A stretch of 64,000 nt of DNA from Botryobacter ruber (GTDB lineage Bacteria; Bacteroidota; Bacteroidia; Cytophagales; Hymenobacteraceae): positions 1-64,000 of the forward strand of contig NZ_QCZK02000043.1 of assembly GCF_003347595.2 (NCBI RefSeq), given 5' to 3'. Within the stretch, counting starts at the first letter, position 1. The number at the start of each line of letters is the position of its first letter. A program made the translations under genes and the position numbers. This document shows, piece after piece, positions 6,353-36,424 of this stretch. The notes under the pieces were generated by a model. The model was not told the origin of the DNA, did not search any database, and saw nothing but the letters and a program-made list of their open reading frames with translations.

Positions 6353-7240
6353 TTAAACAGCTTCGCTTGCTTGCGCTCCTTGCATGGCCTGTCGTTTTAG
6401 CTGGCGGCTTTTGAACCGCATGTTCAGAAAAACCCCCAGCAGCACCAGTGCCATACCCGAATAGGTGAGCAGGCTGAATTCTTCCCCAAAAAGAAAATAC
6501 CCCAGCACAAGCGCGTAAATAATGCCGATATAGTTCAGGTTGGCCACTTTCGAAATTTCTTCGGCCTGGTACGACATGGTCATGTAATACTGCCCGAGCT
6601 GTGTGAGCACGCCCACCAGCAGCAGCAATGCCCAGTCCCAACCCTCCGGCCTCACCCAGTTGAACATGGTATAAGTGCCCACAATGGGAATGGTAACGAG
6701 CGGAAAGTAAAAAATTATGACCAGTGGATGTTCCTTCGTATTCAGTTTCCGGATGATGGTATACGCCAGTCCGGAGAACAAGGAACTAAGGACGCCAAGC
6801 CACAGGTAGAAGGTATCGATTTCGGTTTCGATGCCATTGATCACGATTATTCCGGCAAACGAGATCAGGAAAAAGACCCACTGCCAGGGCTTTACATGCT
6901 CCTTTACCAGGAAAATGCCCAGGATGGCGGTGAAGATAGGAGAGATGTATTGCACCGTGGCCGCCGTAGCCAGCGGGATGTGCTGCAGCGTGTTAAAGAA
7001 AAGCAGCAGTGCCGTGGCGCCTGTTGCCCCGCGTGCTACCAGCCACCAGCGGTTACGTTTGCTGCCCAACACACTTAAATGCGCCCTGCGCAGCACCACA
7101 AAGCTCATGATCAGCGAAACCACAGATCGGAACAGGATTACTTCTGCTGCCGGAATATGCGGCACTGCCTTCACGCAGACATTCATCAGCGAGAAAAACA
7201 ACGTTGACAGCAGCATGTACCTTACCCCTTTCGAGAACAT
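6353..7240 (-). CDS. EamA (DMT superfamily) transporter
   Basis: A 295-residue inner-membrane protein with about ten hydrophobic segments arranged as two EamA repeats. The first starts MLLSTLFFSLMNVCVKAVP; the second includes FYLWLGVLSSLFSGLAYTII. It probably exports a metabolite; substrates in this family vary and cannot be inferred. It converges on the DUF2721 gene with an 11-base gap. Confidence 0.9.
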   Translation of the reverse strand: MFSKGVRYMLLSTLFFSLMNVCVKAVPHIPAAEVILFRSVVSLIMSFVVLRRAHLSVLGSKRNRWWLVARGATGATALLLFFNTLQHIPLATAATVQYISPIFTAILGIFLVKEHVKPWQWVFFLISFAGIIVINGIETEIDTFYLWLGVLSSLFSGLAYTIIRKLNTKEHPLVIIFYFPLVTIPIVGTYTMFNWVRPEGWDWALLLLVGVLTQLGQYYMTMSYQAEEISKVANLNYIGIIYALVLGYFLFGEEFSLLTYSGMALVLLGVFLNMRFKSRQLKRQAMQGAQASEAV

Positions 7241-10339: not shown

Positions 10340-11656
10340 ATGCTACAGGTAAAGAAGAGAAGGAATATAGTCGAGCAACGCCGCGAGTCGGTGGTGCGGG
10401 TACGGCTGGCGCTAGGGTATTTTGTGCTGGTAGCTGTGCTGGGCCTGCTGCTGCGCTGGTTGCTGGTGGCACCTGTCAGCTGGCTGAATTACAAAAATAT
10501 TCTCCATGCACACTCGCATGTGGCGCTGCTGGGCTGGCTGTATTGCGCTTTTTTTGCGACACTGCTATACGCCTACAAACCCCAATCAGAACAGGCGCGA
10601 AAATCGTTCCGGCTGCAGTTCTGGCTTACGCAGGTGGCGGTGCAGGGCATGCTGCTGTCGTTTCCGGTGCAGGGGTATGCCTTGTTCTCGATTACCTTTT
10701 CTACGCTGCAAATCCTGCTTACTTATTGGTTTGCGTGGCGTTTCTGGCGGCATGTGAAAGATGATCAGCTCCTGTGGCACCGGCACTACATCTCGCTGCG
10801 ATTTGTGCTGCTGAGTTTGGTGTTCCTGGTGTTGTCGAGCTTTGGCCCCTGGGCACTTGGTCCTGTGATGGCAACCGGAGGAGCGGGAGGCGAGCTTTAC
10901 TATTCGGCTATCTATTTTTACCTGCACTTCCAGTACAACGGCTGGTTTACTTTTGCGGCGCTTGGCCTGCTGTTCTGGTTTCTTGAAAACAGGAACATCA
11001 CCTATAACAAAAGCTATGCGAGCCGGGTGTTCTGGCTGCTAACCCTTGCCTGCGTACCTGCCTTTGCCCTGTCGGTGCTCTGGACAAAGCCTGCCGCTGC
11101 TATTTACTGGACGGGAGGGGTAGCAGCTGTGCTGCAGATTGTGGCGCTGGGATACCTGCTCCGGCTGCTGTGGGCAGTACGACTGAAACTGGCGCGGCAG
11201 CTGCAGCCCTGGGTGAAGTTCCTGTCCCTGCTGGCCCTGGTATCGCTGGTGGTTAAACTGGCAATGCAGCTGGTTTCGGCTTTCCCGTATTTCGCCGACC
11301 TGGCGTACCGGCTGCGTTACTTCGTTATCGGGTACCTGCACTTGTCGCTCATTGGCTTTGTGTCGCTTTTTGTGCTGGGCTTTTTCCTGCAGCAACGACT
11401 CCTCAGGCTTTCCGCTATGGGTAGAGCCGGAATGGTGTTGCTCTTGGTTTGCTTCTTCCTGACCGAAGCGCTCCTGTTCGGGCAGGGGACGCTGTTGTGG
11501 CAGGGGCTCCCGGCAGTTCCTGCTTTTAACCTCGTGATGTTTATCGCCAGCATCGGCATGCCCGTAGGTGTGCTGCTCCTGTTCCTGGACCAGCCCGGCC
11601 TTTACCTGTACAAACGGCCAATAGCTGCAGCTGAGGCTGACAAAGCGTGCGCGTGA
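10340..11656 (+). CDS. Polytopic membrane protein, heme-copper-oxidase/NnrS-like
   Basis: A 438-residue inner-membrane protein with about 12 hydrophobic helices. His residues cluster at helix edges in ILHAHSHVALLGWLY (about 54-68), IYFYLHFQYNGWF (about 191-203) and YLHLSLIGF. This HxHxxxxGW arrangement recalls heme-binding helices of the heme-copper oxidase subunit I and NnrS families, but the full oxidase ligand set is not evident. The protein at 21173-22480 has a similar plan. Position beside the anaerobic/NO genes suggests a respiratory or NO-related role. Function is inference. Confidence 0.7.
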   Translation: MLQVKKRRNIVEQRRESVVRVRLALGYFVLVAVLGLLLRWLLVAPVSWLNYKNILHAHSHVALLGWLYCAFFATLLYAYKPQSEQARKSFRLQFWLTQVAVQGMLLSFPVQGYALFSITFSTLQILLTYWFAWRFWRHVKDDQLLWHRHYISLRFVLLSLVFLVLSSFGPWALGPVMATGGAGGELYYSAIYFYLHFQYNGWFTFAALGLLFWFLENRNITYNKSYASRVFWLLTLACVPAFALSVLWTKPAAAIYWTGGVAAVLQIVALGYLLRLLWAVRLKLARQLQPWVKFLSLLALVSLVVKLAMQLVSAFPYFADLAYRLRYFVIGYLHLSLIGFVSLFVLGFFLQQRLLRLSAMGRAGMVLLLVCFFLTEALLFGQGTLLWQGLPAVPAFNLVMFIASIGMPVGVLLLFLDQPGLYLYKRPIAAAEADKACA

Positions 11657-12002
11657 AGCAGTTTTATTCACCTTCGGGTATCAATTTTGTTTGCTGCACC
11701 TGCCACCATTCCCGCTGCTGCTAAAGAATTTCCTTTCTTAATATTTATCTTCAGGCCTTTCCCTGTAAGGCTGTGGTGGCTATGGGAGAACCCAAGTTGC
11801 CTATGTGCAGCGGCTGTGGTGGCAGGTGCAGTGATACTTTTTTGGGGTATGAAAGCGCTTTCAGCGAAAGGTGCCGGGAAAGTGACCAGAAAAGTAGGAT
11901 GTCGTATCTGTCTTAGAATTATTTCCTTATCTTGCTATACGAATGCCACTCCGGGAAACGGGCTGATTTCCGCTGTTCCGAGGCTGAAAAAACCATAGCC
12001 GG
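11657..12002. other. Intergenic stretch with two GCAGCAG repeats
   Basis: No supported gene. It carries a minus-strand repeat copy at 11692-11723 and a plus-strand copy at 11806-11832 (CAGCGGCTGTGGTGGCAGGT). Open frames here are low-complexity readings of the repeats. Confidence 0.7.
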
Positions 12003-12114
12003 AGCAAAAAGGAATCTACTCTGCATATAGTGCAGATAACCGTATGTTTGTAAACCGTAGGTTGGGTGGTATTACGTTTATACTATAGTTCTGTGTAATA
12101 TGAAATAATGAAAG
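12003..12114 (+). promoter_or_regulatory. Shared cassette leader, copy 1
   Basis: About 85% identical over 61 bases (12003-12063) to the reverse complement of 36257-36317, then similar again just before the start codon (TTATACTATAGTT, and a TGAAATAATGAAAG ribosome-binding region). Both copies sit in the same orientation directly before an AT-rich gene, yet the two genes are unrelated. It contains the hairpin CTGCATATAGTGCAG (12021-12035). Confidence 0.7.
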
Positions 12115-12699
12115 ATGACCCCAGCAGAGTTAAAGCAGATTTGGCCTGAAGAAGATTTAATAAAAGTTAATATAGACTCAGTTAATAATTTTTCACTTCA
12201 ATCAAGTACTAAAGATTTATTGACTATTTCAGGTATTCCAAAAGGCTTCGAAGAAATAAGCTTTGATGATTTAAGTGAAGGGTTAAATACTGTTAATAAA
12301 TCTTGGAACTTGGAAGACACGTTCTTTGACCAATATTTAGCTATTGGCTCAAATGGTTCTGGTGACCCAGTAGCCATAAATTTGAATAACAAAGAATGTA
12401 TCGTCTACTTAAACCATGATAATGGTTTTCAGGAAGTATTTATTAATACAAATATTGAAAAGCTCGTTGAGACTATTGTAAGGCTTAGGGAGTTCTCAAA
12501 GGTAAAACATCCACTAAAAGAAGATTCCTTCTGGATTACAGAATTTACTGATGAAGAATATGAAAGACTTAAAGCCGACCTCAGCAGAATAGATAATAAT
12601 ATATTTGAAAATGAAGGCTCCCATTGGAAAGACACAATTGATTACTACCTATGGGAACGGGAAGAAGAAAGAAAAAATACAGCACAGAACACTATATAG
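12115..12699 (+). CDS. SUKH (SMI1/KNR4) family immunity-like protein
   Basis: A 194-residue acidic protein. The SUKH signature is in the middle: FDQYLAIGSNGSGDPVAINL (about 63-82), then CIVYLNHDNGFQEVFI, plus an N-terminal FEEISFDDL turn. SUKH proteins commonly act as immunity proteins against polymorphic toxins. No toxin is next to it, so it may be an orphan immunity gene guarding against toxins of neighbouring cells. It is markedly AT-rich compared with flanking genes. It follows the shared leader, and its 3' end runs into an attC-like hairpin, so it looks like the first cassette of an array. Confidence 0.8.
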   Translation: MTPAELKQIWPEEDLIKVNIDSVNNFSLQSSTKDLLTISGIPKGFEEISFDDLSEGLNTVNKSWNLEDTFFDQYLAIGSNGSGDPVAINLNNKECIVYLNHDNGFQEVFINTNIEKLVETIVRLREFSKVKHPLKEDSFWITEFTDEEYERLKADLSRIDNNIFENEGSHWKDTIDYYLWEREEERKNTAQNTI

Positions 12700-12747
12700 C
12701 ATAGAGCCTTCGGCTTTGCCTCAGTTCCTATGCTATACCACACCGTT
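12688..12747 (+). repeat. attC-like stem-loop A
   Basis: AAC (12688-12690) and GTT (12745-12747) flank a perfect 10-bp stem TATAGCATAG (12695-12704) / CTATGCTATA (12728-12737). The spacers are unequal (4 and 7 bases) and a small AGCC/GGCT hairpin fills the loop. This geometry resembles integron attC sites. The next gene starts 17 bases after the GTT, as in cassette arrays. A second hairpin TACCACA/TGTGGTA overlaps the right end. Confidence 0.55.
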
Positions 12748-12763
12748 ATGTGGTATTTGAATT

Positions 12764-13444
12764 ATGAATACAGAAGAGCACAAAGCCATTTTCAAGAATG
12801 ATTTCTTTAGAATAATACAGGAACAATCATTTATAAGGAAACAAATGATTGGGAAAGGTATTGATGCTATCTATTATGCTCCTAAAGTTGAGGGATGGGA
12901 GGAAATTAAAGATAAAGAAGTCATTCATGTGCCAATGGGTTTCTTGACGATTCAATTGTCTGACACAACATTCTATAAACTGAATACTGATTATCAATCA
13001 TGGTGTGGTGGCATTTTCGGTATTCAAATAGAGAGAATTCAAGCAAAGGAATTCTTTGAAAACAAATATGTGCAAGACGAAAACAATCTGAATGTTAATA
13101 AAAATTGGCAAGCAATAGCTGGGCAAAGGATTAGAAATATTAAATGGTACTGGAAAACAGATTCAAATGAGGTATTAGATGGTACAGTTCTAAATGATGA
13201 AGATGCATTAGAATTTTTATTTGAAGATTTATTTCTGCCTGAAAGCATAGTGTTTACATTCGAAAATAACAAAAAAGTCTATTTTTCCGCCTTTGCTCCT
13301 GATTCGGATTACAAGCTAATTACTGGTGCCGAGGAAATAATGATATTTTTTGATGAGGCAAAACTTCTGCAATGGGGAATTGCCAGCAAAGGGTTTGAAA
13401 TAGAACAAAAAAGCAAAACACCACATAACAAAGTTCAGCCTTAA
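12764..13444 (+). CDS. Hypothetical cassette-like protein
   Basis: A 226-residue cytoplasmic protein with no domain I recognise. Segments: IDAIYYAPKVEGWEEIKDKE near 34-53, WCGGIFGIQIERI near 80-92, IRNIKWYWKTDSNEVLDG near 119-136, and a C-terminal ITGAEEIMIFFDE. The alternating strand pattern would suit an immunity-type fold, but that is a guess. It begins 17 bases after attC-like site A and ends inside attC-like site B, giving the tight spacing of an integron cassette. AT-rich like its neighbours. Confidence 0.75.
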   Translation: MNTEEHKAIFKNDFFRIIQEQSFIRKQMIGKGIDAIYYAPKVEGWEEIKDKEVIHVPMGFLTIQLSDTTFYKLNTDYQSWCGGIFGIQIERIQAKEFFENKYVQDENNLNVNKNWQAIAGQRIRNIKWYWKTDSNEVLDGTVLNDEDALEFLFEDLFLPESIVFTFENNKKVYFSAFAPDSDYKLITGAEEIMIFFDEAKLLQWGIASKGFEIEQKSKTPHNKVQP

Positions 13445-13491
13445 CCCTACTAGCTACGCTACGGGCTTCGGCTGCACAAATAACGTTGGTG
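13419..13491 (+). repeat. attC-like stem-loop B
   Basis: CACCACATAAC (13419-13429) and GTTGGTG (13485-13491) are partly complementary ends carrying the AAC and GTT triplets. Inside are CAGCC (13436-13440) / GGCTG (13470-13474) and a TAGC/GCTA hairpin. Weaker than site A. Confidence 0.45.
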
Positions 13492-13540
13492 TACATTTCA
13501 ATAACAAAAAGTAATATTCTAACTTTACAAGAAATTACTT

Positions 13541-13855
13541 ATGCCAAAGCTTTATGAATATTTCTGACTAATCATTTTGTTTTATTCAAATGAGCATGAA
13601 CCAATTCACGTGCATGGCAAGTACCAAGGGCAGGAAAGCAAAGCTGAATTAATTTTTGAAAATGGAGAATTTGAAAAAGTTCGAATATCAGCAGTGAAAG
13701 GTAAAGAACCTCTTGAAAGTAAAAATGAAAAAAGGCTAAGGAAGTTAGTTGAGCACTTTAGGGAAGATATTGTGAAGAAATGGGTAGACTTCTTCGTATA
13801 TAATAAAGAAGTAAAATCTGAAGTAATCACTAAAAAAATTGATGAAGCATGGTAG
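13541..13855 (+). pseudogene. DUF4160 protein interrupted by an in-frame stop
   Basis: The natural ATG at 13541 opens MPKLYEYF, then a TGA (13565-13567) where, from memory, the family has a Gly. The frame continues with LIILFYSNEHEPIHVHGKYQ, the DUF4160 signature, to the stop at 13853-13855. A GGA-to-TGA substitution would explain it. A shorter product from TTG 13577 would lack the first strand. DUF4160 proteins pair with DUF2442 proteins in toxin-antitoxin-like modules, and the DUF2442 gene overlaps here. The rest is intact, so inactivation is recent or the stop is an error. Confidence 0.8.
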
Positions 13856-14091
13856 TTTCAATTGACAAGGCTGTATATCTTGACGGGTATAAAATTAAAT
13901 TTGAATTCTCAGATGGTGTTAACAAAACCATCGATTTTGAAAGCTTTTTAAAGTCAGCGAAAAATCCGATGACTAAGAAGTACCTGGATAAGGAAAAATT
14001 TAAAAACTTTAACTTGGAATATGGGGATATAGTCTGGAATGACTATGAGTTATGTTTTCCCATATGGGACTTACATGAAGGAAGCATTTAA
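13849..14091 (+). CDS. DUF2442 domain protein
   Basis: An 80-residue protein with DUF2442 features: AVYLDGYKIKFEFSDGVNKT (about 8-27), IDFESFLKS and IVWNDYELCFPIWDLHEG. It overlaps the DUF4160 frame by seven bases. DUF4160/DUF2442 pairs behave like toxin-antitoxin gene pairs, though the mechanism is not established to my knowledge. Intact and AT-rich. Confidence 0.85.
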   Translation: MVVSIDKAVYLDGYKIKFEFSDGVNKTIDFESFLKSAKNPMTKKYLDKEKFKNFNLEYGDIVWNDYELCFPIWDLHEGSI

Positions 14092-14150
14092 AGAAACATG
14101 CACCAATCCAGCACCGCCTTAATCCTCGCTTTGCTTCGAATTCATGCAAT

Positions 14151-15014: not shown

Positions 15015-18000
15015 TTAGCTACAGCCGAGGCTGTTGCCGCAGTTCAGGCATTTGTAACAGGTGCCGGAGCGGATGGTAATGTGGCCGCACACGTTGCAGA
15101 TCGGGGCATCGCCCATCATGCTGGCCAGCGCCTGCTGCGACTGCTCCAGGTGCAGGCCTTTGTTAGCGGCCGCTACCGCTTTTTGGCTGTTCCCGTTCAC
15201 GCCGTTTACCAGCCGCCCGTTCTGTGGTGCTTTGGGCTGTGTAGGTTTTTCCGCTTCCGGAGCAGCCCTATTCACTTCCTTTGGCGGGTCCTGCACATGC
15301 ACCAGGTCGGTACGGTTCAGGTACTCGTAGCCCAGCAAACGGAACATGTAATCGAAAATCGAAGTGGCAGACTTGATGTTCGGATGCTCCACACGCCCCG
15401 CCGGTTCGAAGCGGGTGAAGGTGAAGCGGCTCACGAACTCTTCCAGCGGCACCCCGTGCTGCAGCCCCAGCGATACGGCAATGGCAAAGCAGTTGAGGAT
15501 AGAGCGGAACGAAGCCCCTTCCTTGTACATATCGATGAACACTTCGCCCAGCGTGCCGTCCGGGTACTCGCCGGTGCGGAGGTAGATGGTATGGCCGTCG
15601 ATTTTGGCTTTCTGCGTAAACCCGTTGCGTTTGTCCGGAAGCTTGCGGCGCTCCACCATGTACGCCAACTGCTGCCGGAAAGCAGGATTGTCCGATTCGG
15701 CGAGAATGGCCTTGGCAGCCTTCAGAATCTGGTCGGCGTTATAGGTCAGTTCCTCTTTCTGTGGCGCTTCCTGTTTCTTTGCCTCCAGCTTCACTTCTTC
15801 CTGCTTCACCTCTTCCTGCTGCTCTTCTTTCTCATCATCGCTGCTGCTGTTCTTGGCCGACAGCGGCTGCGAGAGTTTGCTGCCGTCGCGGTAGAGCGAG
15901 CAGGCTTTCAGACCCAGTTCCCATGACAACTCGTAGCAGTGTGCCACTTCTTCCGGAGCGGTTTCCTGCGGCAGGTTTATGGTTTTGGAAATAGCTCCTG
16001 AAATGAAAGACTGAACAGCAGCCATCATCCGGATGTGGCCCTGGGGCAGTATATAGCGCCTGCCTTTGTTGCCACAGCGGTTGGCACAATCGAATACCGG
16101 GTAGTGTTCCGCTTTCAGGTAAGGCGCGCCTTCGATGGTCATGGTGCCGCAGACGTAGTCGTTGGCTTCTTCGAGTTGCTTAGTTGTGTAGCCCAGCGCA
16201 CGCAGCAGGTTAAAGCCGGGCTGGTTGTAGTGAGCAGCCGTAAAGCCCAGCCGCTGCAGGCTGGCCTCGCCCAGGGTATACACACTGAACAGCGAAACCA
16301 GGTCATAAGCCGTTGGCAGGACTTCTTCCACCCGGTCAACTTCCGCCTCCAGCAGGCCATGCTGCAGCAGCGACTCCCTGTTTACATGCGGTGCACCAGC
16401 TAAGGTCGCATGCCCTTTGGCATAGTTTACAATGGCCTGGGTTTGCTCCGGCGTGTAGTTCAGCTTCTGCAGCGCCAGCGGAATAGATTGGTTGATGATT
16501 TTGAAGTAGCCGCCACCGGCCAGCTTTTTATATTTTACCAGCGCAAAATCCGGCTCCACGCCGGTGGTGTCGCAGTCCATGAGCAGGCCGATGGTACCGG
16601 TCGGGGCGATAACGGTAGCCTGTGCATTGCGGTAGCCGTATTTTTCACCGAATGCCAGGGCATCATCCCAGGCCTGGCAGGCGGCAGCGTGCAGCTGCTT
16701 GGGGCAGCGCACCGGGTCCAGCGGAACAGGCTTGATGCTGAGGTGGCTGTAGTTTTCCGGTTGGTTATGGGCAGCCGCATGGTGGTTGCGGATCACGCGC
16801 AGCATGGCCTCTTTGTTCTGCTCGTACTTCGGAAAAGCGCCCAGCACAGCGGCCATTTCGGCGGATGTTTTGTAGGCCACACCGGTCATGAGGGCGGTAA
16901 TGGCACCGGCCATGGCACGGGCATCGTCGCTGTCGTAGGGGAGGCCCTGTATCATGAGCAGTGCGCCCAGGTTGGCGTAGCCCAGGCCGATGGTGCGGTA
17001 GTCGTAGGAGCGTTGCGCCACAGCCTCCGATGGGAACTGCGCCATCAGCACCGATATTTCCAGCACGATCGTCCAGAGGCGGCAGGCGTGCTCAAACGCA
17101 GCCACATCAAACGACTGCTCCTGCTCGTTAAAAAACTTGCTCAGGTTCAGCGACGCCAGGTTACAGGCTGTGTTGTCGAGGAACATGTATTCCGAGCAGG
17201 GGTTCGAAGCCCGGATAGGTCCTTCGGCCGGGCAGGTGTGCCACTCGTTAATGGTGGTGTCGAACTGCACGCCGGGGTCGGCGCAGGCCCAAGCGGCGTC
17301 TGCTATTTCATCCCAGAGTTTTTGTGCCGGTATCTCCTTTACTACACTGCCATCGGTACGGGCCACCAGGTTCCAGTTTTCGCCTTTGCGGAGTGCCTCA
17401 AAAAAGGAGTTCGGAATGCGCACCGAGTTGTTGGAGTTCTGCCCCGACACGGTCTGGTACGCCTCGCCGTTGTAATCGGAGGAGTAGCCTTCTTTAATAA
17501 GTGCCGCTACCTTTTTCTCTTCGTCTTTTTTCCAGTTGATAAAATCTTCGATTTCGGGGTGGTCCAGGTCGAGGCACACCATCTTAGCCGCACGGCGGGT
17601 AGTGCCGCCCGACTTGATGGCACCGGCTGCACGGTCGCCGATCTTCAGGAACGACATCAGGCCCGAGGAAGAGCCACCGCCGCCAAGGGGCTCGTCTTTG
17701 CCCCGGATGCTGGAGTAATTGGTGCCTACACCCGAGCCATATTTAAAGATGCGGGCTTCCTGCACCCACAGGTCCATGATGCCGCCTTTGTTCACGAGGT
17801 CGTCTTCTACAGCCAGGATAAAACAGGCATGCGGCTGCGGCCGCTCGTACGCCGACTCCGACTCCTTCAGTTCACCGGAGTTCGGGTCTACATAATAATG
17901 TCCCTGGGGTTTGCCGGTTAAGCCGTAGCTCTCGTGGAGGCCGGTGTTAAACCACTGCGGGGAATTGGGCGCAGCCTGCTGGTCCAGGAGCATGTAAGCC

Positions 18001-18365
18001 AGCTCATCGTAAAAGGCCTGCGCATCGTCTTCCGATGCAAAATAGCCGTAGCGTTTGCCCCAGTTGGTCCAGCAGTTCACCATGCGGTGCACCACCTGCT
18101 TTACCGACGTTTCGGAACCGGTGCCTCCCGATGGCAGCGGCACGCCTGCTTTGCGCAGGTATTTCTGGGCTAAGATATCCGTCGCGATCTGCGACCAGCC
18201 TGCCGGCACTTCCACATCTTTTATCTCGGCAACCACATCACCCGACGGGTTCCGGATAGTGGAGGAACGGCGCTCGTAACGGAACAGATCATACGGGTTT
18301 GCGTCCTTCCTGGAGAAGTGGCGGGAGACGGTCAATCCTTTTCGCTCTGCGTGTTTTTTTTTCAT
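15015..18365 (-). CDS. nrdJ: Adenosylcobalamin-dependent (class II) ribonucleotide reductase
   Basis: A 1116-residue enzyme that makes deoxyribonucleotides without oxygen, using vitamin B12 instead of a tyrosyl radical. Visible features: the NPCSE active-site motif, with the N-C-E triad, before [14 protein letters not shown]; the [11 protein letters not shown] stretch; and a C-terminal Cys-rich tail (CNVCG, then [14 protein letters not shown]) that would shuttle electrons and bind zinc. A Glu/Gln/Lys-rich insertion (about residues 830-870) is unlike the rest and is probably a disordered linker. Single-gene transcription unit with its own terminator. An FNR-like box lies about 105 bases upstream, shared with the divergent RIC gene. 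Confidence 0.96.
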
Positions 18366-35440: not shown

Positions 35441-35502
35441 AGGTTTATGATTGCTGTGAAATAAACTCTTGGTATTTCGCTTTTTGATTGGTTTTGGCTA
35501 TG

Positions 35503-35562
35503 AACGGATTTGCCTAATTAGGTGTGCGAGGCGAAGCCGAAGCATAACTTATAGGCAGGGTT
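35503..35562 (-). repeat. attC-like stem-loop C
   Basis: AAC (35503-35505) and GTT (35560-35562) flank the stem TGCCTA (35511-35516) / TAGGCA (35552-35557) with unequal spacers (5 and 2 bases). The loop holds the motif that reads TGCTTCGGCTTCGCCTCGCA on the minus strand. It lies 14-73 bases beyond the stop of the minus-strand gene, as attC does in a cassette. Confidence 0.55.
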
Positions 35563-35575
35563 ATGGGATTGTTTT

Positions 35576-36172
35576 TCACAAATCGTATTCTAATATAGCT
35601 AATGGCATGGGCTTTTCATCTTCTAAACTTCTATGATACCAAAGTGTACCTTTATGAGTATCTGTGGCAACACTATCCAATTCAACAATTCCATAAGCAA
35701 CTTTAGAGTTGAAAGGAGATTTATCATCATAAAGAAGTTTTATTGTGTCTCCCACTATTTCGTATGTACCATTGTAATCATCAAATCCGAAACAGACTGA
35801 AGTATAAGAAAATCGATTTTCCTTCCTTATCTTCAAAGATGATGTACAATTTGCAGTACTTTCAAGTCGAGCAAAAATTAGATTCGGTTCTTCAAAATGA
35901 TTTGGATTATATACACCAAAAGGAAAAATAACAGTAATCAAAAGTACGAATGCGAGAACGGCTGTACTTATGTTTTTCTTTTTGCTTTTAAACTTCCCAA
36001 ATATTAGAAGAGTAAATTGTACAAGTAACACAACAGCCAAAGCTAAAAAAGCAATTACCAATACTGCGATAATTCCCAAGTCCCATAGCCCTGGCAACTT
36101 TTGCCATAAAAAGGAAGTGTTAAAAAGCAAAAAGAACAGGATTGATGATATAATTATTGATTTATTCTTCAT
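35576..36172 (-). CDS. Hypothetical membrane protein, cassette-like
   Basis: A 198-residue protein with two hydrophobic helices (about 5-20 and 30-60), a short basic linker, a third helix (VLAFVLLITVIFPFGVY), then an extracytoplasmic domain of about 110 residues with FDDYNGTYEIVGDTIKLLYD and KGTLWYHRSLED. No family recognised. AT-rich, unlike its neighbours. It follows the shared leader (36173-36317) and precedes attC-like site C, so it looks like a single-gene cassette. Confidence 0.75.
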   Translation of the reverse strand: MKNKSIIISSILFFLLFNTSFLWQKLPGLWDLGIIAVLVIAFLALAVVLLVQFTLLIFGKFKSKKKNISTAVLAFVLLITVIFPFGVYNPNHFEEPNLIFARLESTANCTSSLKIRKENRFSYTSVCFGFDDYNGTYEIVGDTIKLLYDDKSPFNSKVAYGIVELDSVATDTHKGTLWYHRSLEDEKPMPLAILEYDL

Positions 36173-36317
36173 CTCTTTATTTCAACTTACCCATAACTAT
36201 ACTATAAAAGTAATTATTACGTCTACACTCCCAATACTGGAGGATAAGCGTACCCCCTAAACCTACAGTTTCCAAACATACGCTTATCTGCACTATGTGC
36301 GGAGTAAATTCTTTACT
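36173..36317 (-). promoter_or_regulatory. Shared cassette leader, copy 2
   Basis: Homologous to 12003-12114, in the same orientation relative to its gene. The distal 61 bases (36257-36317) are about 85% identical, and the proximal TTATAGTATAGTTATG and TGAAATAAAGAG before the ATG also match. In this copy an inverted repeat GATAAGCGTA / TACGCTTATC (36243-36252 and 36285-36294 on the plus strand) brackets the core. The proximal part may hold the promoter and ribosome-binding site. Confidence 0.7.
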
Positions 36318-36424
36318 GCTACTGCTCTAAATTTCTTATCAGAGCAACACCTTTCAAAGTCATTTTCTTACACAGCAAGATAAAAAAATATTCCAATAAT
36401 TTAATATCTCAGTTAAACTTTTTC

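Follow-up and report, generated by a model that had tools for sequence, protein, structure and literature searches.

Why should two unrelated AT-rich genes be preceded by one and the same leader? The question is raised by a 64,000-nucleotide stretch of the Botryobacter ruber genome (assembly GCF_003347595.2, contig NZ_QCZK02000043.1, positions 1 to 64,000; hereafter the window), in which leader 1 lies on the plus strand and leader 2, far from it, on the minus strand. The comparative sequence analysis reported here indicates that the leader very probably belongs to an integron-like system, in which it is the attI site, AT-rich cassettes are inserted at its terminal GTT, the cassettes end in attC hairpins and the integrase is a XerA-like tyrosine recombinase lacking the additional domain I2; recombination itself is what we infer from these parts.

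The two leaders can be aligned and have the same orientation relative to the gene downstream, as the preliminary description of this DNA had proposed, and its estimate of about 85% identity in the distal block is borne out by BLAST against the own genome (84% over 67 bases, E 1.1e-13). It had drawn the leaders at 12003-12114 and 36173-36317; both sites are real, the sites proper being 12019-12090 (plus strand) and 36304-36195 (minus strand). The genes behind them are indeed unrelated: a SUKH-4 protein (Pfam E 7.8e-10) downstream of leader 1, and a 198-aa protein with two strongly hydrophobic stretches and no Pfam match downstream of leader 2. The 16-base core CAYATAGTGCAGATAA, with up to two mismatches allowed, occurs in exactly two places in the window, which are the two leaders (expected 0.06; 0 of 100 shuffles reached two). 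The count of two copies therefore stands for the window but not for the genome (Pontibacter-like, 62 contigs, 5.84 Mb), where BLAST with leader 1 retrieved 9 places and an attI profile gave 24 matches at E<=1 and 14 at E<=1e-4, the latter on 11 contigs, with two inside the window and a third on the same contig just beyond it. This profile was built from 24 sites of the own and related genomes, site 1 included and site 2 excluded. Compared with the copy on contig C54, the homology of leader 1 extends upstream to about 11913 (85%, 193 bp), taking in TATCTTG at 11928-11934, and leader 2 has about 38 additional bases, by eye an imperfect palindrome, ahead of ...TATAGTATAGTT. The leader ends in GTT, typically ...TATACTATAGTT, and the AT-rich cassette starts directly after it, so that leader and cassette start keep a constant spacing rather than falling at random positions, while the open reading frames tabulated behind it differ from leader to leader. 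The features of the window are as follows.

11928-11934, plus strand: -7-like promoter element TATCTTG, candidate cassette promoter (Pc) of leader 1; read from the sequence.
12019-12090, plus strand: attI-like site 1 (leader core) with terminal GTT at 12088-12090; attI profile E 1.5e-11 (site in the profile), the same site type adjoining the integrase.
12091-12744, plus strand: cassette 1, with a SUKH-4 immunity-like gene (coding sequence 12115-12699; Pfam SUKH-4 E 7.8e-10); 5' GTTCTGTG complementary to 3' CACAGAAC.
12683-12752, plus strand: attC-like site of cassette 1; attC model E 4.3e-6 (site in the model), hairpin z -4.65 in closed form.
12745-13484, plus strand: cassette 2, encoding a 226-aa protein without Pfam match (coding sequence 12764-13444); 5' GTTATGTG against 3' CACATAAC, exact.
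13422-13492, plus strand: attC-like site of cassette 2; attC model E 7.1e-7 (site in the model).
13485-14130, plus strand: cassette 3, with a DUF4160-like frame (named by eye) and a DUF2442 gene (13849-14091, E 1.8e-6); attC end decayed, end placed by eye.
36376-36382, minus strand: -7-like element TATCTTG, candidate Pc of leader 2; read from the sequence.
36195-36304, minus strand: attI-like site 2 with terminal GTT at 36197-36195; attI profile E 7.4e-10 (site outside the profile's 24), alignment to leader 1.
35505-36194, minus strand: site 2 cassette, encoding the 198-aa protein with hydrophobic stretches and no Pfam match (coding sequence 35576-36172); 5' GTTATGGG against 3' CCCATAAC, exact.
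35498-35567, minus strand: attC-like site of the site 2 cassette; attC model E 2.7e-6 (site in the model).

Complementarity between the 5' end of a cassette and the start of its attC (R' and R'') is a hallmark of integron cassettes, and the cassettes behind the leaders have it. Cassette 1 opens with CTGTG directly after GTT, cassette 2 with ATGTG and the site 2 cassette with ATGGG, and the far ends read CACAGAAC (at its beginning), CACATAAC and CCCATAAC, respectively. We examined 38 leaders from three genomes, including 8 of the 13 attI matches of G030 and 11 of the 18 of G032. Of these, 35 have GTT where the profile ends, and at 23 of the 35 junctions the 8 bases counted from GTT are exactly reverse-complementary to the opening of the cassette's hairpin, their partner lying 120-3000 bp downstream, compared with 47 successes in 1164 trials (4.0%) when the downstream stretch was searched with the 8-mers of other sites. 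The three leaders dropped for want of GTT at the profile end were window site 2, which does have an exact partner, and weak matches on contigs C23 and C49; the leader on contig C19 was omitted, its contig ending 92 bp further on. On the complete plasmid of P. kalidii, all six consecutive cassettes have exact ends. Cassettes are AT-rich and 401-2341 bp long (median 583, n=59), and the attC core is GTTR in 57 of 59 sites, with the full GTTRRRY in just 12; these 59 are the steps kept out of 84 taken by the cassette walker (exact partner, CGTT end, 45-79 bases), a filter that discards spurious steps beyond the ends of arrays, though genuine mismatched sites are lost with them.

Between the R boxes, the attC sites share a hairpin. 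Across 34 aligned long-class sites, 87.7% of the cells are paired against 20-44% in slid versions, a percentage biased in favour by a hairpin model derived from the consensus of the same sites. The same alignment contains 122 double-changed cells compared with a shuffled mean of 44.7; further pair types (20 against 23.0) were the one of five measures unfavourable to the hairpin model. Only one cell is a G-U pair, suggesting that the structure is one of DNA and not of RNA. The inner hairpin also folds better on the bottom strand than on the top (mean z -2.57 against -1.53 in 45 long sites, and -3.34 against -1.71 in 14 short ones), with a mean advantage of 2.6 and 3.2 kcal/mol, respectively. 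The own genome has 25 attC matches at E<=1. Fifteen of them have a leader match, weak ones (to E 0.013) being counted, no more than about 2 kb ahead, and the other 10 have none at that distance (six on C20 and one each on C2, C17, C35 and C37). Cassette 3 of the window (13500-14105) shares 89.8% identity over 606 bp with the second cassette in the C17 array; its DUF4160-like frame (13541-13850) has an in-frame stop after 8 codons, a place at which the C17 near-copy is open. That the window holds attI sites followed by cassettes is a reading in which we have high confidence.

The integrase was found on contig C41, as a 488-aa tyrosine recombinase that is both the best match in the own genome to an IntI profile and the sole match there to the integrase at E<=1e-40. 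Its stop codon is followed, after 147 bp, by the terminal GTT of a leader and then, as far as the contig runs, by two cassettes whose ends match. The last 92 or so bases of C41, where a third cassette starts, are identical to the bases after the lone leader on C19, so that the assembly runs both into one cassette. The arrangement recurs in near-full-length homologues from named Pontibacter, Rufibacter and Adhaeribacter, with the leader GTT 136-152 bp after the stop in all 17; left out of this set were L095 (partial, at a contig end), L075 (a Bacteroidales metagenome-assembled genome, 38%) and distant Clostridia and Planctomycetota. At least one exact-ended cassette follows in 12 of the 17, three have 0-207 bp of contig left, and L063 and L073 have no exact partner; L068 carries nine cassettes in series, eight exact and one with a mismatch. 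This shared position beside the integrase, together with the logic of the cassette boundaries, identifies the leader as an attI. The preliminary description had suspected an attI-like, promoter-carrying junction of an undescribed cassette system, a suggestion that the GTT junction, the varied reading frames, the adjoining integrase gene and the covarying hairpins all favour, and to which can now be added an integrase of unusual type, attC sites and dispersal throughout the genus. In P. beigongshangensis, two contigs (L059 and L066) end exactly at the attI GTT, as though the assembly had forked where recombination would take place, and could reflect several platforms or cassette variation within the culture. 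Clusters of CGGATATATCCGAATAATTCGGATA-like palindromes were seen in L024 (about 7020-7095) and on contig C19 (L012), one such cluster immediately preceding the integrase gene.

This integrase is of an unexpected kind. The best match of its catalytic half is XerA, at 219.4 bits (cut-off 220), while IntI scores 208.7 (cut-off 265). In the alignment with VchIntIA (PDB 2a3v), residues 206-247 of that chain are unmatched, and throughout the genus the TIGR02249 match of the family is broken at model positions of about 179/241. The I2 domain has been described as necessary for cassette capture and present in no other protein (PMC7790495), has been used as the mark of an integron integrase in two surveys (PMC2426708, PMC9668308) and is said to be carried by archaeal IntIs as well (PMC9668308). 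At its N-terminus the integrase is extended by about 200 aa, with a tandem domain weakly resembling HARP/XPB-DRD, and it is transcribed in the direction of the cassettes. The residues that we take to be catalytic are invariant in the 17 homologues.

Could the sites nevertheless be those of a canonical integron, served by an I2-bearing IntI located elsewhere (since lost, on a missing plasmid or in another host), with the XerA-like gene as a bystander? Leaders and cassettes alone do not identify the enzyme that moves them, and four leader-bearing genomes are without an integrase match at E<=1e-40. The IntI cut-off (TIGR02249) was, however, reached in none of the 41 genus genomes and by none of 10 distant homologues; a search for a canonical IntI gave sub-threshold matches only, the best of which in the own genome was the very gene beside attI. 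Taken with the constant place of the XerA-like gene before attI and its invariant presumed catalytic residues, this makes a canonical IntI very unlikely, and we have good confidence that the XerA-like integrase would be the enzyme of the system.

Matches to the attI profile (E<=1e-4) are present in all 41 genus genomes (3-20 each) and in 0 of 117 other genomes of the order, and matches to the attC model (E<=1e-4) in all 41 (9-55 each) and in 1 of 117, the order-wide searches having scored 46-48 candidates per genome against 135-138 in the genus searches. The integrase (E<=1e-40) was found in 33 of 37 genus genomes, full length and without stops in 26 by table reading. The single-contig genome G030 has one integrase match and 13 attI matches. 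Another three genomes (G006, G014 and G032) have 13-20 attI matches and no integrase match at E<=1e-40, and docking sites thus appear to outlive the enzyme. Truncated integrases stand beside attI in other genomes, for example G031, G009 and G034. We also considered whether lone leaders are decayed whole platforms; this is unsupported for the 16 lone leaders of the own genome, upstream of which no integrase remnant was found at E<=0.1. Over at least 80% of its length, the integrase occurs on two complete plasmids, those of P. kalidii, where it is followed by attI and the six cassettes, and of Rufibacter tibetensis, where an attI-like end follows it; many downstream genes on both are annotated as hypothetical. 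Transposases of the IS110 insertion sequence (IS) family lie in or next to cassette regions of two plasmids (L235 15177-16532 and L236 19274-20332), and some IS1111/IS110 elements target attC.

This distribution bears on the proposal that the host recombinases XerC and XerD move the cassettes, as they do for integrative mobile elements exploiting Xer (IMEX), the adjoining recombinase merely helping. The inverted arms of attI are, by eye, reminiscent of dif, and phage CTX is described as integrated by Xer as a single-stranded hairpin (PMC7790495). That attI and attC of this type occur throughout a genus of which most genomes have the integrase, and among the 117 others of the order were matched only by attC in a single genome, speaks against host Xer and renders the Xer proposal highly unlikely. 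XerC and XerD are, to our knowledge, near-universal.

We compared G030 with G032, which are two species, again with 8 of 13 and 11 of 18 attI matches, and found four orthologous lone-leader pairs, the cassettes of which differ in all four. In pair 1, the clearest, one genome has a single cassette and the other has two, homology sets in again 4 and 2 bases past the final GTT, and upstream homology ends about 110 bp before attI; in pairs 2-4 upstream homology runs into or through attI. Downstream, homology resumes after 16 and 19 bases in pair 2, where the last G030 repeat ends in ATT, at 4 bases (G032) and about 1.2 kb (G030, with another gene between) in pair 3, and at about 70 and 610 bases in pair 4. 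Two G030 sites are 97.7% identical over 612 bp, a stretch that includes attI; other like cassettes at different sites, between species, are 75-86% identical.

The genes flanking leader 1 (window 10340-11656 and 15015-18365) are convergent and 84-1238 bp apart in 15 of 29 loci of relatives, where the longer gaps may hold a small gene. No attI was found at this flank in any of the 29 loci (of 35 matches; 1.5 kb beyond the gene covered), and one has a weak attC match (E 0.0017). With the flanks this close together and free of attI in relatives, leader 1 and its cassettes most likely arrived together in the own lineage. The gene flanking leader 2 downstream has relatives in only three other genomes, attI-free within 1.5 kb; the other flank was not found there.

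The leader probably carries the cassette promoter Pc as well, as suggested by short motifs near it. The Bacteroidota promoter consensus is TAnnTTTG. A motif TA(T/C)(A/C)TTN, picked after inspection, lies 40-120 bp upstream of 12 of the 16 lone leaders of the own genome (500 shuffles: mean 2.5, maximum 6), and TA(T/C)ATT(A/G) lies 8-9 nt past the integrase stop in 15 of the 17 homologues; no -33 element was identified alongside the -7-like motif at leaders or integrase platforms. That the leader is nothing but a scattered element serving as a promoter or RNA leader, or else one terminus of a non-autonomous transposon, standing by chance before AT-rich islands, is extremely unlikely: its copies are indeed dispersed upstream of different genes, mostly with a -7-like element before them, and the end of contig C39 (L010 5002-5033), about 700 bp after a lone leader, reads by eye as the first 10 codons of an IS256-type-transposase-like frame (no systematic transposase search was made), but such an element would leave unexplained the exact complementarity of the bases after GTT to a distal hairpin, the neighbouring integrase, up to nine cassettes behind one leader, Watson-Crick covariation with a single G-U cell and, in the clearest orthologous pair, homology that resumes 2-4 bases past the last attC GTT.

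We therefore return to the integron-like system and to how it may work. The XerA-like integrase, without I2, would recombine folded single-stranded attC into attI, acting in cis at its own platform and in trans at the dispersed attI sites, and Pc in the leader would express the first cassette. Recognition of the fold, elsewhere performed by I2, would fall to the N-terminal domain, a replacement in which we have low to moderate confidence. Going further, and tentatively, though as a serious possibility, these may be members of a separate class of Bacteroidota integrons, with an I2-less XerA-type integrase, a tandem HARP/XPB-DRD-like fork-binding domain that recognizes the hairpin, one integrase serving in trans many spread promoter-plus-attI docking sites as parallel expression slots, and divergent arrayed forms in other families (G039, G045 and possibly G055).

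The likeness to integrons, the general layout of which is outlined in PMC8618304, is extensive. Both have an integrase gene, attI and tandem small cassettes on one strand with a GTT core, cassettes whose 5' ends are complementary to the opening bases of their own attC, and an attC hairpin of conserved fold, variable sequence and bottom-strand bias; both occur on chromosomes and are also found on a plasmid that bears transfer genes. The attI adjoins the integrase gene (17/17), and exchange is seen at lone attI copies (4/4 pairs). Unlike in integrons, the integrase has no I2 (patch III) and has the long N-terminal extension, its gene and the cassettes share one direction of transcription, the attC core is mostly limited to GTTR, and a genome has 3-20 attI matches. 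Since the system shares most parts of an integron but not the I2-bearing integrase, we class it as an integron variant. Clusters of attC sites lacking integron integrases (CALIN) likewise have cassettes away from an integrase gene, and window site 1, with two attC, formally fits their definition; they differ in that here an attI-like leader stands in front, with most attC of the own genome close behind one. XerA/Xer tyrosine recombinases (NF040815; PDB 5hxy, 4a8e) have neither the N-terminal tandem domain nor the association with attI and cassette arrays. Among the integron-like subgroup of simple tyrosine recombinases (Smyshlyaev et al., 2021, PMC8138268), the insert-less members are not tied, in the portions of that paper at hand, to cassette arrays, attI or dispersed sites.

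Surveys keyed on I2 would pass over cassette systems with an I2-less integrase. IntegronFinder 2.0 is reported to have found one complete integron in Bacteroidetes proper, in Salinibacter ruber (PMC9024848), in contrast with the attI and attC profile matches (E<=1e-4) in every one of the 41 genomes of a single genus. Among the matches listed for PubMed Central titles and the starts of abstracts, preprints excluded, none dealt with integrons of Pontibacter or its relatives or with I2-less integron integrases. If our reading is true, the system would be a second solution to the recombination of folded single-stranded DNA or a living relative of a pre-I2 state, which would make the origin of integrons testable, and its many dispersed attI sites would alter the picture of one platform per integrase.

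Homologues of the integrase in other families of the order are 40-52% identical, with most of the match falling in the C-terminal half. Two of them, in G039 and G045, adjoin arrays with the same boundary logic, convincing in that both loci give chains of 7, whereas 20 base shuffles per strand never exceeded 3, and their attC differ and are often longer; the G045 integrase is short, with an in-frame stop within the match. The G055 array (chain 4 against 3) is no more than suggestive, as shuffles of other loci reached 4. At nine of the 13 loci first examined (L222-L227, L229, L231 and L232) chains were indistinct from shuffles, and the thirteenth, L233, is a genus array (chain 4 against 3 and 2). 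In L226, L230 and L221 (G037, G039 and G055), the gene directly after the integrase looks, by eye, like one for a single-stranded-DNA-binding protein, and such a protein would be a fitting partner for a single-stranded substrate. L231 and L232 (G055 and G025) encode related recombinases without the N-terminal extension, followed by genes that by eye resemble IS91-type transposases. Relatives annotated on plasmids of Acinetobacter are 52% identical over residues 255-488.

Two further observations concern the window. A GC-rich inverted repeat of the type CTGCACCTGCCACCACAGCCTCTGCTG, seen by eye at about 11695-11840 and upstream of several leaders, is probably a separate dispersed repeat family. 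Positions 163-1177 are 88% identical over 1015 bp to L073, and positions 1572-1977 are 80% identical over 408 bp to L060, both of which are integrase loci of other species.
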